Source: a virus. Taken from it: a stretch of DNA of 23,281 nt. The stretch spans positions 1-23,281 of the IMG/VR virus record IMGVR_UViG_3300008267_000804, one strand, 5' to 3'. The notes beneath the pieces are model-generated. The model ran no database searches. It was not told the DNA's origin and saw only the letters and a program-made list of their open reading frames with translations. The stretch's first letter is position 1. Each line of letters starts with the position of its first letter. This document shows, piece after piece, positions 5,556 to 21,075 of this stretch. A program made the position numbers and the translations under genes.

Positions 5556-7520
5556 ATGGCCGATAATAGTATGAAAAATAGAAATACGTTTTCTCAAGAA
5601 AGAGATCTTTCCGAGAAAAATCCAAGAAATAGCGATTCTCCTCTTTATGTTGCATTAACTAGATTATTTTCTGGTCCATTATCAAGTTATAGAGAACAAT
5701 CTCAGATTAGATACAAAAGAAGAGACTTAGATCGTTTTAAATTTACTTCTGCTGGTGGTCAAACTTTTAAAAAGAAAAGCTATAATCCATTTGAAGCCAT
5801 TCAAAGTAATATCATGGCTAATCAAAGCCGCGCTGAACGCTATAGCGATTTTGATCAAATGGAATTTATGCCAGAAATTGCATCTGCTATGGATATTTAT
5901 GCAGATGAAATGACAACCAGCAATCAACTTAAGGCTCTTTTAGTTATTGAATGTAAAAATGAAGAAATTAAAACATTACTTCAAAATCTTTTTTATAAAA
6001 CTCTTAATGTAGAACAAAATTTATACGGCTGGTGCCGTACAATGGTAAAATTTGGTGATTTTTTCCTGTATTTAGACATAGATGAAAAACTTGGTGTCAA
6101 AAGCGTGCTTGGATTACCTTCGCCTGAAGTGGAAAGACTTGAAGGCCAAGATGAAACAAACCCAAATTATGTTCAATTTCAATGGAATAGCGCTGGTTTA
6201 ACTTTTGAAAATTGGCAAATTGCTCATTTTCGTGTATTAGGTCAAGATAAATATAGTCCATATGGTACTTCTATTTTAGAACCAGCCCGTCGTATCTGGC
6301 GTCAGCTTAATTTGATGGAAGATGCGATGATGGCTTACCGCATTGTAAGATCTCCAGAGCGCAGAGTATTTTATATTGATACTGGTAACATTGCTCCACA
6401 AGATGTTGAACAATATATGCAAAAAATTATTACGCAAATGAAGCGTAATCAAATTGTCGATCCAACAACTGGTCGCGTTGATCTTCGTTATAATCCTATG
6501 AGTATTGACGAAGATTTTTATATTCCCGTTCGTGGAGCAGGAAGCGGTACAAAGATTGAAAATTTGCCTGGTGGTCAATTTACCAGCGCCATTGAAGACG
6601 TTAAATATTTAAGAGATAAACTATTCTCTGCTCTGAAAATTCCACAAGCATATTTGGCTAGAGGTGAAGGCGCTGCGGAAGATAAAACTATGTTAGCTCA
6701 AAAGGACATACGTTTTGCTCGCACAATTCAACGTTTACAAAGAGTAGTAATTGAAGAATTAAGAAAAATTGGTATGATTCATCTTTATACTCTTGGATAT
6801 CGTAATGATGATTTGTTAAAATTTAACTTAAAACTACATAATCCTTCAAAACTTGCTGAAATGCAAGAATTAGAGCATTTTAAGGCGCAATTAGAAATTG
6901 CAGGGTCTGCTAAGGAGCAAGGATTTAGCAAGAGATGGATTTATGAAAATCTTCTAAAAATTAATGACGTTGAATTCCAAAGAATTCAAAGAGATCTTTA
7001 TTATGATGCTTCTTTCACAAAATCTCTTGAAGCAGCAGGCACAGAAGGCGGCGAAGAAAGTGGCGGCGGTGCAGGAGGGTCTTCATTTGGTGGAGAAAAC
7101 ACAGAAACACCTTCACCAACCCCAGAAGCGGGTGCAGAAACTCCTGCTGCTGGCGGAGAAGAAGCTGGTGGAGAAGAGTCGCCTCTATTAGCAGCTCCTG
7201 CCCGTAGAGAGGATGGAAGTGTTGTTCCATATGTAACTCCAGACTCAAAAGGAAAAGCTTATAAGCCAGTCGCAGCTCCAAATTATAGTGGCGGCGCAAG
7301 AAGTCATAGTATTCGTTCTAGAAGTATGGCAAGACCAAATACTGGATTTATGAAAAATCCTCCAATAGCTATAGGAATTGCAGAACAACAAAATGATCTC
7401 TTTGAAGGAGATGAACAACTACTTATAGAAACACAAAATAAAATTGAATCCATGAAACAAAGTTTTCTTAAGAAAAAAGTTATAAAACAAAATGAGGATG
7501 AAAAAGATGGCGCACAATAA
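5556..7520 (+). CDS. 20: Portal vertex protein, gp20-like
   Basis: This 654-residue protein should form the dodecameric ring at the unique vertex, which nucleates prohead assembly, docks the terminase and carries the neck. The core (about 80-490) shows typical T4-type portal sequence: MEFMPEIASAMDIYADE near 107-123, FRVLGQDKYSPYGTSILEPA near 225-245, and the stem/crown segment IPQAYLARGEGAAEDKTMLA near 365-384. It is about 130 residues longer than T4 gp20 (524 aa). The excess is mostly a C-terminal tail (about 490-654) rich in Gly, Ala, Glu, Pro and Thr that looks disordered. The start has AAAAGGA upstream and lies 3 nt after the terminase stop. Its 3' end overlaps the next gene by 14 nt. Confidence 0.93.
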   Translation: MADNSMKNRNTFSQERDLSEKNPRNSDSPLYVALTRLFSGPLSSYREQSQIRYKRRDLDRFKFTSAGGQTFKKKSYNPFEAIQSNIMANQSRAERYSDFDQMEFMPEIASAMDIYADEMTTSNQLKALLVIECKNEEIKTLLQNLFYKTLNVEQNLYGWCRTMVKFGDFFLYLDIDEKLGVKSVLGLPSPEVERLEGQDETNPNYVQFQWNSAGLTFENWQIAHFRVLGQDKYSPYGTSILEPARRIWRQLNLMEDAMMAYRIVRSPERRVFYIDTGNIAPQDVEQYMQKIITQMKRNQIVDPTTGRVDLRYNPMSIDEDFYIPVRGAGSGTKIENLPGGQFTSAIEDVKYLRDKLFSALKIPQAYLARGEGAAEDKTMLAQKDIRFARTIQRLQRVVIEELRKIGMIHLYTLGYRNDDLLKFNLKLHNPSKLAEMQELEHFKAQLEIAGSAKEQGFSKRWIYENLLKINDVEFQRIQRDLYYDASFTKSLEAAGTEGGEESGGGAGGSSFGGENTETPSPTPEAGAETPAAGGEEAGGEESPLLAAPARREDGSVVPYVTPDSKGKAYKPVAAPNYSGGARSHSIRSRSMARPNTGFMKNPPIAIGIAEQQNDLFEGDEQLLIETQNKIESMKQSFLKKKVIKQNEDEKDGAQ

Positions 7521-9187: not shown

Positions 9188-9679
9188 ATGAAAGTAACCA
9201 AACAATATTTACAACAAGTAATTAAAGAAGAAGTTGATTTAATGATTCAAGAGGGAGAGCTTGATGAGGCTCTTTCTGATATTTTTAAAAACGCTGGCAG
9301 AAAATTAGCTGGTAAAGCTGCTCAAATGACTGGACTTAGTTCTGATGAATTAGCCAATCAAGAAAAAGATGCAGCAGCTGCAAAAGTAACAAAACAGAAA
9401 GAGATCGCTAAGAAACAAGTTCTTCAAAAAGTTCAACAAGCTTCTCAAATGGTTTTAAAAATTCATGATGAAGTTGAACAAATTGGAAAATTGGCTGCCC
9501 CATTAAGCTACTCATCTGGAGAAAAATTAGATGTAAAAGCTCTAGGTAATGCCGCCGAAGCTTTAATGCAGGCATTGGATAAAGTTGAGCAAGATGTTAC
9601 TGGCGAAAGAGGCCACGTAAAGGGTGCATCGTTAGGAATTCGTCCATCATTAAAAGAAAAGAAAGTAGTTAAAAAATAA
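9188..9679 (+). CDS. Ala/Lys-rich helical protein with KVTK-type N-terminal helix (candidate prohead core protein)
   Basis: The protein has 163 residues. The N-terminal helix MKVTKQYLQQVIKEE ends in I-x-E and is followed by an acidic stretch, then Ala/Lys/Gln-rich coiled coil (about 55-150) and a basic tail. The composition resembles prohead core and internal proteins more than an enzyme. The first 15 residues match the previous gene at most positions, whereas the rest does not, so the shared part looks like a modular signal rather than a duplicated gene. The start has GGGAG about 8 nt upstream. The stop overlaps the next start by one base. Confidence 0.7.
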   Translation: MKVTKQYLQQVIKEEVDLMIQEGELDEALSDIFKNAGRKLAGKAAQMTGLSSDELANQEKDAAAAKVTKQKEIAKKQVLQKVQQASQMVLKIHDEVEQIGKLAAPLSYSSGEKLDVKALGNAAEALMQALDKVEQDVTGERGHVKGASLGIRPSLKEKKVVKK

Positions 9680-9975
9680 TGCAATTAATAACTTTTATTC
9701 TTGCTTGCTATGGAATGACGATGATTCTTGTTTATAGCAAATTTTTTGAATCATTGAGGTTAAAAATTTCTTCATATAATATAGAATTATTAAATTATAT
9801 GATAAAATGTACAATGTGCGTAGGGTTTTGGGTTGGTATATTTAACTGGTTTATGTTAAATTTATCTTTTAATTTTTTTATTGCAGGATGTATTTCGTCT
9901 GGAACATCCTATTTACTAAGTCGTGTAGTGGACGATGACGGAGTAATAATTAAGGTTAAAAATAGCCTTAGTTAA
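9679..9975 (+). CDS. Small membrane protein with CxxCxGFWVG motif (DUF1360-like)
   Basis: The 98-residue protein has hydrophobic segments at about 1-20, 48-62 and 64-80. Between them lies KCTMCVGFWVG (about 43-53), with a C-x2-C pair right before a Gly-Phe-Trp-Val-Gly turn. From memory this arrangement resembles DUF1360 membrane proteins found in phages and Bacillus, whose function is not established. The start overlaps the upstream stop (TAATG) and no SD of its own is obvious, so translation probably depends on coupling. The Cys pair lies at the membrane edge and could bind metal or form a disulfide. It is the last gene before the structured intergenic unit. Confidence 0.65.
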   Translation: MQLITFILACYGMTMILVYSKFFESLRLKISSYNIELLNYMIKCTMCVGFWVGIFNWFMLNLSFNFFIAGCISSGTSYLLSRVVDDDGVIIKVKNSLS

Positions 9976-9976
9976 A

Positions 9977-9985
9977 CTATATAAT
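9977..9985 (+). promoter_or_regulatory. Candidate promoter element before the mini-gene
   Basis: The sequence CTATATAAT contains a perfect TATAAT at 9980-9985, but no convincing -35 box is seen 17 nt upstream. Similar CTAT(T/A)TATA elements occur in the gaps before gp22 and gp18. If transcription starts about 7 nt downstream, the RNA would begin at the SD of the 25-codon ORF. Confidence 0.4.
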
Positions 9986-9991
9986 ATGATC

Positions 9992-10001
9992 GGAGGTGAT
10001 C
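9992..10001 (+). promoter_or_regulatory. Ten-base perfect Shine-Dalgarno in a possible hairpin loop
   Basis: GGAGGTGATC is complementary to ten consecutive bases of the bacterial 16S rRNA 3' end and lies 4 nt before the ATG at 10006. It is much longer than the other SD sites in the window. The flanking TGATC (9987-9991) and GATCA (9998-10002) could pair and leave GGAGGT in a six-base loop, provided the RNA starts upstream of 9987. Confidence 0.6.
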
Positions 10002-10005
10002 AAAC

Positions 10006-10083
10006 ATGCGTAACCAAGTTACATACATCCGTCGCTATATGCTACAACCAGTAAGACGTTGTTGCAACGGTAGCTGTATTTAG
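10006..10083 (+). CDS. 25-residue Arg/Cys-rich mini-protein or leader peptide
   Basis: This short ORF translates as MRNQVTYIRRYM followed by LQPVRRCCNGSCI and a TAG stop. It carries five Arg and ends in a C-C-x3-C cluster. Support for translation comes from the exceptionally strong SD 4 nt upstream, codons of the kind favoured in highly expressed genes (CGT, AAC, ATC, GGT) and isolation between a TATAAT element and a hairpin. The ORF also contains two small inverted repeats, GTAAC/GTTAC at 10010-10022 and CGTTG/CAACG at 10057-10069. It could be a tiny virion or regulatory protein, a leader peptide for the downstream protease operon, or incidental to a structured RNA. No homologue was recognised. 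Confidence 0.5.
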   Translation: MRNQVTYIRRYMLQPVRRCCNGSCI

Positions 10084-10110
10084 CCCTCTGGTACAAAAAA
10101 CCAGAGGGCT
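10082..10110 (+). terminator. Strong hairpin after the mini-gene
   Basis: AGCCCTCTGG (10082-10091) pairs perfectly with CCAGAGGGCT (10101-10110) around a nine-base A-rich loop. The stem starts in the stop codon of the 25-codon ORF. The downstream sequence is TAAATCAATT, not a proper T-run, so it may be a weak terminator, an attenuator, or a stability or processing hairpin. Confidence 0.55.
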
Positions 10111-10134
10111 TAAATCAATTTAGGATCAAAATTA

Positions 10135-10740
10135 ATGACAAAAGAATTATTAAGAGAATTTTACGAATTATGTGATGGTGGAGTCTGCCAAGATCTTTTG
10201 ACAGAAGAAGAAAAAATTTATGTTAAAAGCGGCGGTCTAATGTTGACTGGTATTATGCAAAAATGTGACCAAGAAAATGGAAATGGTCGTATTTATTCAA
10301 GAAAAATTCTTCAAAGAGAAATTGATAACTATCAAAATATTATAAACGATCACAGAGCTTTGGGAGAATTAGACCACCCAGATGATTCTGTTGTAAATTT
10401 AAAAAATGTCTCACATATGGTGACAAAAATGTGGTGGGACGGCAATAATGTAATGGGAAAAGTTAAAGTCTTAGAAACTCCCTCTGGAAATATTTTAAGA
10501 TCATTGGTAAAAAGCGGTGTTAAATTAGGTATCTCTTCAAGAGGACTTGGCTCTACTAGAAAAGAAGGTGGTAAAACAATCGTTGAAGAAGACTTTCAAT
10601 TAATTTGTTTTGATTTCGTTCAAGAACCTTCAACTCCAGGCGCGTTTATGATGAGCGAGGGTAAAAGAAGAGATATGAATAAAGTTTTTAGTAAAGCGGA
10701 TAAACTAAACCGCTTATTAAATGATATTATAGGAAAATAA
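10135..10740 (+). CDS. 21: Prohead core protease, gp21-like
   Basis: This 201-residue serine protease should cleave scaffold, capsid and core proteins at (I/L)-x-E sites during head maturation; T4 gp21 has 212 residues. Visible hallmarks are GRIYSRKIL (51-59), LGELDHP with catalytic His81 (76-82), GISSRGLGS with the nucleophile at Ser134 or Ser135 (132-140), and FDFVQEPSTPGAFM (159-172), typical of T4-type prohead proteases. These belong to the assemblin-like fold (clan SH). The start is supported by AGGA about 9 nt upstream. It follows the structured mini-gene region and sits 2 nt before the decoration-like gene. Its likely substrates in the window are gp22, gp23 and the three proteins with L/I-x-E-ending N-terminal helices. 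Confidence 0.92.
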   Translation: MTKELLREFYELCDGGVCQDLLTEEEKIYVKSGGLMLTGIMQKCDQENGNGRIYSRKILQREIDNYQNIINDHRALGELDHPDDSVVNLKNVSHMVTKMWWDGNNVMGKVKVLETPSGNILRSLVKSGVKLGISSRGLGSTRKEGGKTIVEEDFQLICFDFVQEPSTPGAFMMSEGKRRDMNKVFSKADKLNRLLNDIIGK

Positions 10741-12277: not shown

Positions 12278-12742
12278 ATGGATAAAAACAGTCTTAAAAA
12301 AGTAATTAAACCGCTGATTAAAGAATGTTTAACTGAAATTCTTTATGAACAAGGTTTAAATAAACTTATTGAAGAATCTATTAAAGTTAAACAAAAAGAA
12401 GCTATCAGAGAAAATATTGAAGAAAAGCAAGAAGAGGATATTAAAACAGCAAGACAAAAATTTATGGGTCTTGTTCCTCAAGAACAAAAAAAAATCAATT
12501 TAAAAGAAGCCAAAAGACAACTTTTAGAAAAAATTGGAAAAAATGGCTTTGATCCTTTTGAGGGTTCAATTCCGTCAACAGACGATGATTCCGAGCAAGT
12601 TTCGGAATCTTTAAACCCACAAGCAACAGTTGTCCCAGGAATACAAGGCCGTGGTGTTGATATTTCGAGTTTATTGGGACAAAATAAAGAAGTTTGGAAG
12701 ACTTTTACAACTGCCTTAAATGGAAAAGGCAAGAAAGAATAG
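12278..12742 (+). CDS. Coiled-coil protein with N-terminal helix ending in L/I-x-E (candidate prohead core)
   Basis: The protein has 154 residues. The opening MDKNSLKKVIKPLIKECLTE is an amphipathic helix with several (I/L)-x-E sites. A Glu/Lys-rich coiled coil (about 25-90) follows, then NGFDPFEGSIPS near 89-100, a disordered acidic stretch, and GRGVDISSLLGQNKEVWKTF near the C-terminus. From memory a GVDISxxLG motif near the end is shared by uncharacterised proteins in the prohead cluster of environmental T4-like phages. A core role is inferred from that, from the N-terminus and from neighbours gp21 and gp22. The start has TGGAGT about 7 nt upstream. Confidence 0.7.
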   Translation: MDKNSLKKVIKPLIKECLTEILYEQGLNKLIEESIKVKQKEAIRENIEEKQEEDIKTARQKFMGLVPQEQKKINLKEAKRQLLEKIGKNGFDPFEGSIPSTDDDSEQVSESLNPQATVVPGIQGRGVDISSLLGQNKEVWKTFTTALNGKGKKE

Positions 12743-12749
12743 GTATATC

Positions 12750-13058
12750 ATGGCTCGCGCAGTAAATTTAGAGGTAAAATTACCTTCACACGTAAGACCA
12801 ACTGATGAAACAACAGAACAGTTGATTAAAAAATTCTTGAGAGAGTGCAGCAAAGAATCTATTGTACAATACATGTATGAAAATAGTGCTTGGACAAGAA
12901 GATTTTCTAAGAAAAGTGTTAAAGATAGGCAAAAGAGATTAAAATATAAGAGAAATGCTCAAAAAAATCAACAAGAATTAAACAATGAAATTACAGATGT
13001 TGCTAAAAAGAAGAAAAAAAAATTCACTCCAAAGCAAACGCCTGTAAATAAACAATAA
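12750..13058 (+). CDS. rpsU-like: Ribosomal protein bS21-like
   Basis: The ATG at 12750 is chosen because AGG lies 7 nt upstream; an in-frame ATG at 12720 would overlap the previous gene by 23 nt. The product has 102 residues. The segment EQLIKKFLRECSKESIV (about 24-40) matches the bS21 pattern L-x-(K/R)-(K/R)-F-x-R-x-C-x-K-x-x-(I/V), and is followed by a basic helical region with FSKKSVKDRQKRLKYKR (about 50-66) where bS21 has its Pro-Ser/Thr and Arg/Lys-rich helix. The tail is extra basic. bS21 sits on the small subunit near the anti-Shine-Dalgarno and is the ribosomal protein most often reported in phage genomes. If the call is right, it may adapt ribosomes to phage mRNAs. A different basic nucleic-acid-binding protein is the main alternative. 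Confidence 0.6.
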   Translation: MARAVNLEVKLPSHVRPTDETTEQLIKKFLRECSKESIVQYMYENSAWTRRFSKKSVKDRQKRLKYKRNAQKNQQELNNEITDVAKKKKKKFTPKQTPVNKQ

Positions 13059-13081: not shown

Positions 13082-13095
13082 ACTATTTATATAAA
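13082..13095 (+). promoter_or_regulatory. Candidate phage promoter before gp22
   Basis: ACTATTTATATAAA lies in the 74-bp gap before the scaffold gene, about 50 nt from its ATG, with TTGTCG (13060-13065) as a possible upstream element. The ten bases ACTATTTATA recur exactly before gp18 (18155-18164). Confidence 0.45.
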
Positions 13096-21010: not shown

Positions 21011-21023
21011 TAAATAAAAATTT

Positions 21024-21061
21024 AAAGCTGTGTACTATATAAAAGTAGTACACAGCTTTTT
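21024..21061 (+). terminator. Terminator hairpin between sheath and tube genes
   Basis: AAAGCTGTGTACT (21024-21036) pairs perfectly with AGTACACAGCTTT (21047-21059) around a ten-base loop, followed by T's (21057-21061). It has the form of a rho-independent terminator with a short T-run. The loop contains TATAAA and the SD of the tube gene follows at once, so it may instead shape tube mRNA processing. Confidence 0.7.
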
Positions 21062-21075
21062 AGGAGAATAAAAAC

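Follow-up and report, generated by a model that had tools for sequence, protein, structure and literature searches.

What does a 25-codon open reading frame (ORF) do in the head-gene module of a T4-like virus, where an earlier note on this DNA had seen three options: a very highly translated tiny protein, a leader peptide controlling the prohead protease operon, or a structured RNA presenting its Shine-Dalgarno (SD) sequence to ribosomes? The window analysed here is the entire virus record of 23,281 bases. All the elements which that note had described within 9977-10110 are present, namely a TATAAT (9980-9985), the SD, the ORF (10006-10083) and a hairpin, and they belong to a T4-type head module in which the portal gene is followed by several unknown genes, a DUF1360-like gene, the micro-ORF, gp21, further genes and the major capsid protein gene (Table 1). 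The prohead protease gene gp21 is the next gene after the micro-ORF in the window, but not in all relatives.

Table 1. Features of the micro-ORF locus and of the neighbouring head genes in the window.
Feature	Position	Strand	Remarks
Portal gene (gp20), T4-type	5556..7520	+	Pfam Portal_T4, E 3e-78
DUF1360-like small membrane protein (predicted), CxxC in CTMCVGFWVG	9679..9975	+	
Late-promoter-like motif ACTATATAAT	9976..9985	+	CTATTTATA in relatives
Extended Shine-Dalgarno GGAGGTGATC	9992..10001	+	
Microprotein gene, 25 aa, MRNQVTYIRRYMLQPVRRCCNGSCI	10006..10083	+	Homologues in >300 viral loci
Conserved core RYMLQPVRRCCNGS with cysteine pair	10033..10074	+	159 distinct cores
Intercistronic hairpin, 11-bp stem, start inside stop codon	10082..10110	+	Covariation and fixed offset in relatives
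Prohead protease gp21	10135..10740	+	Pfam Peptidase_S77, E 3e-32

Comparison with relatives shows that the ORF at 10006-10083 codes for protein and that its product belongs to a conserved microprotein family under selection at the protein level. Many of 80 relatives collected via gp21 alone, without use of the peptide, encode the same short peptide upstream of gp21, including distant ones with ~50-60% gp21 identity. A scan of viral contigs with the peptide alignment returned at least 600 pattern matches, 304 of which were confirmed among the matches listed. The N-terminal part of the microprotein varies in sequence and length; the typical core across 159 distinct sequences is K/R-W/Y-M-L-Q-P-V-R-R-C-C-x-G-S, and the residue pattern over the distinct cores reads [KR][WY]x[LI]QPVRRC[C/K]xG[S/C]. 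Conservation covers the whole 13-residue block and not a codon run alone. Synonymous codons are free, nearly every one of them being used at the fixed residues (157 distinct 42-nt cores), and pN/pS is 0.064 in close pairs of cores; across all pairs it is 0.27, with saturation at synonymous sites. The relatives share descent, and some records may represent repeat sampling of one virus; where stated, counts refer to distinct sequences.

Each of eight long records contains a single copy of the gene, and the one further pattern match in these records is out of frame inside other sequence. A bacterial genome collection gave five matches, three of which (L165-L167) have a DUF1360-like gene as well as the peptide and resemble phage contigs that ended up in bins. 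No relative was detected in isolated phages by tblastn of 21-29 aa peptides, a search in which such short queries are weak; the microprotein locus had no Pfam, PHROG or Rfam match, and a literature search found no paper on the peptide, all of which fits the earlier statement that no T4-like equivalent has been described. The family is undescribed and extends over hundreds of uncultured T4-like viruses that infect water bacteria; with a length of about 16-37 aa, it escapes standard annotation.

The core contains a pair of cysteines, placed among the final residues of the microprotein. The first, C7, is present in 159/159 distinct cores, a count to be read with the search motif, which demanded C7, and the core glycine is invariant among the same cores. 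The second cysteine is either C8 (C-C-x-G-S, 138 cores) or C11 (C-[KRT]-x-G-C, 21 cores), never both and never neither. The peptide search motif allowed C, K or R at the C8 position and left the C11 position unconstrained, and the gp21-anchored and DUF1360-anchored sets were selected on neither. On the gp21 tree the C8/C11 state switches ~7 times, at least three of these switches being forced by well-supported branches. The additional cysteine of the window peptide, C24, lies outside the core.

The microprotein is tied to the upstream DUF1360-like gene and not to gp21; both lie in the stretch of head genes that runs from portal to prohead protease. Among gp21-anchored loci with enough upstream sequence, 56 have both the DUF1360-like gene and the microprotein, 18 have neither and none is mixed (Fisher 1e-17, a p-value that overstates the case because the sequences are related). 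In 80 loci collected via DUF1360 alone, the microprotein was found by motif in 68 and as variants by eye in seven; four loci end shortly after the gene, and the remaining one (L220) has no microprotein in its 633 nt. Extra genes, up to 1.4 kb, lie between the microprotein and gp21 in some loci, and genes also intervene between DUF1360 and the microprotein in some lineages, over as much as 1.3 kb in L031-L043. One locus (L158) contains two DUF1360-like ORFs (717-1022 and 1823-2017), the second without the CxxC part as called.

The DUF1360-like protein has several hydrophobic helices and a CxxC that is invariant in all full-length distinct homologues, as expected of the family. Its AF2 model is all-helical (pLDDT 77), and the top Foldseek matches include viral DUF1360 proteins; this moderate-confidence model together with hydropathy predicts a membrane protein. 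Profile comparison by hhalign with the actinophage DUF1360 set gave a probability of 97.5 (E 7e-12). Both groups have a CxxC-G-F/W protein, presumably of the membrane, encoded in the portal region, and the T4-like branch differs from DUF1360 proper (PF07098) in being paired with the microprotein and in falling below or at the Pfam cut-off: the window protein has E 0.12, below cut-off, and the best T4-like member scores 21.4 bits against a cut-off of 21. The PDB held nothing for this protein by sequence or fold, and the literature search met the term 'DUF1360' in one unrelated paper. In a 595 kb phage (LR756511.1; L170:4001-4600), a DUF1360-like gene is followed directly by a small zinc-ribbon-like protein with two CxxC motifs, possibly another cysteine partner of DUF1360.

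A second constant neighbour is the portal gene, which lies upstream of the DUF1360-like gene in 110/110 T4-like loci with a portal within reach, usually ~1.35 kb away. A search with one actinophage DUF1360 protein returned 380 records, and the DUF1360 gene stands directly before the portal gene in all 14 actinophages inspected (L252-L265: Pumpernickel, Sedona, Lephleur, Verity, Prince, Dori, TurkishDelight, Mimi, SynergyX, Clawz, Boopy, ReqiPine5, MellowYellow and Geonosis). ReqiPine5 has one small ORF between the two, and its portal is annotated merely as similar to Rosebush gp12. We found no paper on this association in actinophages. DUF1360 is a family of unknown function, and its association with the portal gene in phages that are not related to each other offers a first clue to what it does. 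The actinophage DUF1360 genes have no two-cysteine micro-ORF alongside; the microprotein is therefore not required by all DUF1360 proteins. From gene position alone, we infer a role of the DUF1360-like protein and the microprotein in head assembly. T4 prohead assembly starts on a membrane-bound portal and needs gp40 (PMC9958956), and given this precedent and the portal neighbourhood, the membrane step of portal and prohead initiation would be the most economical role.

The SD of the micro-ORF has ten matches to the 16S tail and lies 4 nt before the ATG, with a predicted duplex of -20.3 kcal/mol; the window's other genes range from -1.3 to -9.1. GGAGGT is retained in most freshwater relatives, and many marine members have ordinary SDs. 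For the remaining signals, we compared 21 distinct freshwater sequences that share this hairpin type, among them the window's own. Full pairing of the SD-flanking repeat TGATC/GATCA is limited to the window and a single relative, while CGTTG/CAACG pairs fully in 11/21 and tracks conserved codons. Of the inverted repeats that had been read as structures, the final hairpin is conserved and these two are not. With its flanking repeat not conserved, neither an SD-sequestering hairpin nor the structured RNA proposed to present the SD to ribosomes is sustained. The TATAAT is indeed perfect but not conserved: 18/21 sequences have CTA[TA]TTATA at that place, and its sigma-70 reading is better replaced by a variant of a phage late-promoter-like motif. 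The window has just two exact copies of CTATTTATA, at 13083 and 18156, each within a long intergenic gap that precedes a late gene (13133 and 18218), a placement that makes it a likely phage late promoter there; genome-wide counts of ACTATTTATA are weakly above control. Coding conservation, the strong SD and, in the freshwater clade, the promoter-like motif speak for the 'tiny protein' part of the first option.

The region 9977-10120 has a fold of -42.6 (vs -27.4; beaten by 1/200 dinucleotide shuffles, z -4.3), and the final hairpin covaries. In marine-type sequences, the core is followed by the element C-R-N-[GCGGGT NRY GCCCGC], whose stem starts at an identical offset from the core Ser/Cys codon in 86 sequences. 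The three outermost pairs are preserved in 75/75 distinct cases and show double changes, for instance GC/AT/CG. Over one third of the 86 no longer have a stop after the serine, and translation continues through the stem (C-terminal RVAPA), yet both stem and offset are retained; on the tree, the stop position has shifted ~20 times. The freshwater stem is different, longer and unrelated in sequence, yet also at a fixed offset, with double changes in 4/7 consensus pairs. It is thus the last core codon, and not the stop, to which the hairpin register is locked. For a ribosome with the Ser codon in its P site, the stem would begin ~4-5 nt past the A-site codon, and pause and frameshift hairpins have a spacing of ~5 nt (PMC5009743).

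About 41 of the 159 sequences have no hairpin by the stem finder used, which missed a few stems (e.g., that of L055, visible by eye), and since they keep the peptide the two elements are separable; gp21 starts within ~10 nt of the core in most of these sequences and further off in some. The hairpin motif is nearly unique to the microprotein locus in the genomes scanned. No U-run follows the window hairpin, which the intrinsic terminator scan did not list, and U-runs are absent from most relatives' hairpin tails. The window fold holds no competing stem, and Rfam covariance models gave no match for the hairpin locus as a known RNA family. Consequently, the behaviour of the hairpin is that of a mechanical element in translation register and not that of a classic terminator. 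Binding of the peptide to its own hairpin is disfavoured because the freshwater and marine hairpins are wholly different while the peptide is the same.

We tentatively favour, at a little short of an even chance, a model in which the microprotein acts in trans with the portal-linked DUF1360-like membrane protein in prohead initiation. The microprotein would be a small subunit of its partner, and its thiols would complete with the partner CxxC a shared 2Cys+2Cys site, holding zinc or another metal or forming a disulfide, at the inner membrane. The pair may then aid membrane assembly of the portal and prohead initiator, as gp40 and host factors do in T4; the likeness to the gp40-dependent, membrane-bound gp20 initiator (PMC9958956) is proposed here from gene position. 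The strong SD, the late-promoter-like motif and the hairpin would provide high, gene-specific output, the hairpin's part being to pause or insulate ribosomes where the ORF ends. The alternating cysteine pair is a clean natural system in which to test metal-site sharing between proteins. Three observations run against this model: the register between hairpin and core codons exceeds the needs of a trans-acting protein, the two genes can be as far apart as in L031-L043, and DUF1360 genes of actinophages do without the micro-ORF.

The codon register would suit a cis-acting pause, a reading that we consider rather unlikely. Nascent WMLQPVRRCCxGS and the hairpin would together stall the ribosome with the core Ser/Cys codon in the P site, and the stall would set the translation or stability of neighbouring head genes; the thiols might act as a sensor of metal or redox conditions, by analogy with CruR-type uORFs. 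It draws on the constant offset in the 86 marine-type sequences despite displaced stops, on the same constancy in unrelated freshwater hairpins, on a spacing from the A-site codon that fits known pause and frameshift hairpins, and on the near confinement of the motif to this locus. Moreover, conservation lies at the C-terminal end, and the exit tunnel would accommodate the shortest forms (16 aa). A hairpin locked to codons and not to the stop is likewise a clean natural system in which to test mRNA-structure pausing. But the peptide persists in the sequences without a detected hairpin, the downstream gene varies (gp21 or others) while the upstream gene is constant, the alternating cysteines suit finished-peptide chemistry better than fixed tunnel contacts, and slippery codons are absent. 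Unlike an arrest-peptide uORF, the locus has no constant regulated downstream gene; its core is conserved and its hairpin stands in fixed register, at what may be a stall site.

Known systems resemble the locus in part. CruR, a 145-aa protein with CXXC and RAPP motifs, heads a copper operon (PMC9426467); the likeness to such CruR/DUF2946 ORFs lies in the Cys motif and a possible stall near the C terminus, whereas the microprotein is far shorter, at 16-37 aa, has no RAPP and sits in a head-gene module. The T4 gene 60 bypass signal likewise combines a nascent peptide with a hairpin overlapping the stop codon, but here no take-off and landing codons are conserved. A micropeptide-gp21 fusion by bypass or frameshift was rejected, as frame and distance to gp21 vary. 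Unlike frameshift hairpins, which share the ~5 nt spacing (PMC5009743), the locus has no slippery site, and since the core codons also vary synonymously, no programmed frameshift is indicated.

The trans-acting partner and the cis pause can both be true together, a cis effect of the hairpin being possible because its register is fixed to the last core codon. Their union would be a two-part portal-docking device, in which a CxxC membrane protein and a two-cysteine microprotein share a metal or disulfide site and a built-in pause times the making of the latter; as a complete scheme, we hold this to be unlikely. If true, it would reveal a new membrane start of phage head assembly in many aquatic T4-like phages and make DUF1360 a portal-linked family across unrelated phages.

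The microprotein may instead be a stand-alone small component of the virion or core present in many copies, such as an internal or cement-like peptide of the head, and DUF1360 would then be inherited along with it through gene order only. Its location among head genes and the strong SD and promoter-like motif of the freshwater clade would agree with this, but the full co-occurrence with the DUF1360-like gene, even where the surrounding gene order changes, and the ordinary SDs of many marine members make it improbable. Slightly more improbable still is that the hairpin serves as intrinsic terminator, or stabilises an mRNA end, behind an ordinary short gene without special partner: the GC-rich stem right behind the ORF is stable, but most stems have no U-run, the SD of the next gene is close behind, and the stem is retained in the reading frame after stop loss at an offset fixed to codons. 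Attenuation of the prohead protease operon by an amino-acid leader peptide, suggested by Cys/Arg codons followed by a hairpin, is barely credible, as an entire residue block is conserved and no mere codon run, neither a competing stem nor a U-run was found, the peptide can be >1 kb from gp21, head genes follow instead of biosynthetic genes for the amino acid, and the ORF, far from being gp21-specific, co-occurs fully with the upstream DUF1360-like gene, which weakens the corresponding claim of the earlier note.

A few further observations were made along the way. Between the sheath and tube genes, at 21020-21065, the window has a long inverted repeat, AAAGCTGTGTACT...AGTACACAGCTTTTT, with a T-run, which is terminator-like and unlike the micro-ORF hairpin. 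The protein encoded at 12720-13058 gave a weak Ribosomal_S21 match (E 0.0055, below cut-off); the head module of Microcystis phage Mel-JY01 includes an annotated RpsU that is unlike it (E 1.3). In L051 (2240-3003), the 5' part of gp21 (MSKQLLREY...) continues into an ORF resembling a GIY-YIG endonuclease, and the gp21 gene seems to be interrupted by a homing element. Finally, the gp21 match of L055 (2750-3000) begins at residue 80 and the preceding sequence reads like the C-terminal end of an intein, making an intein in this prohead protease possible.
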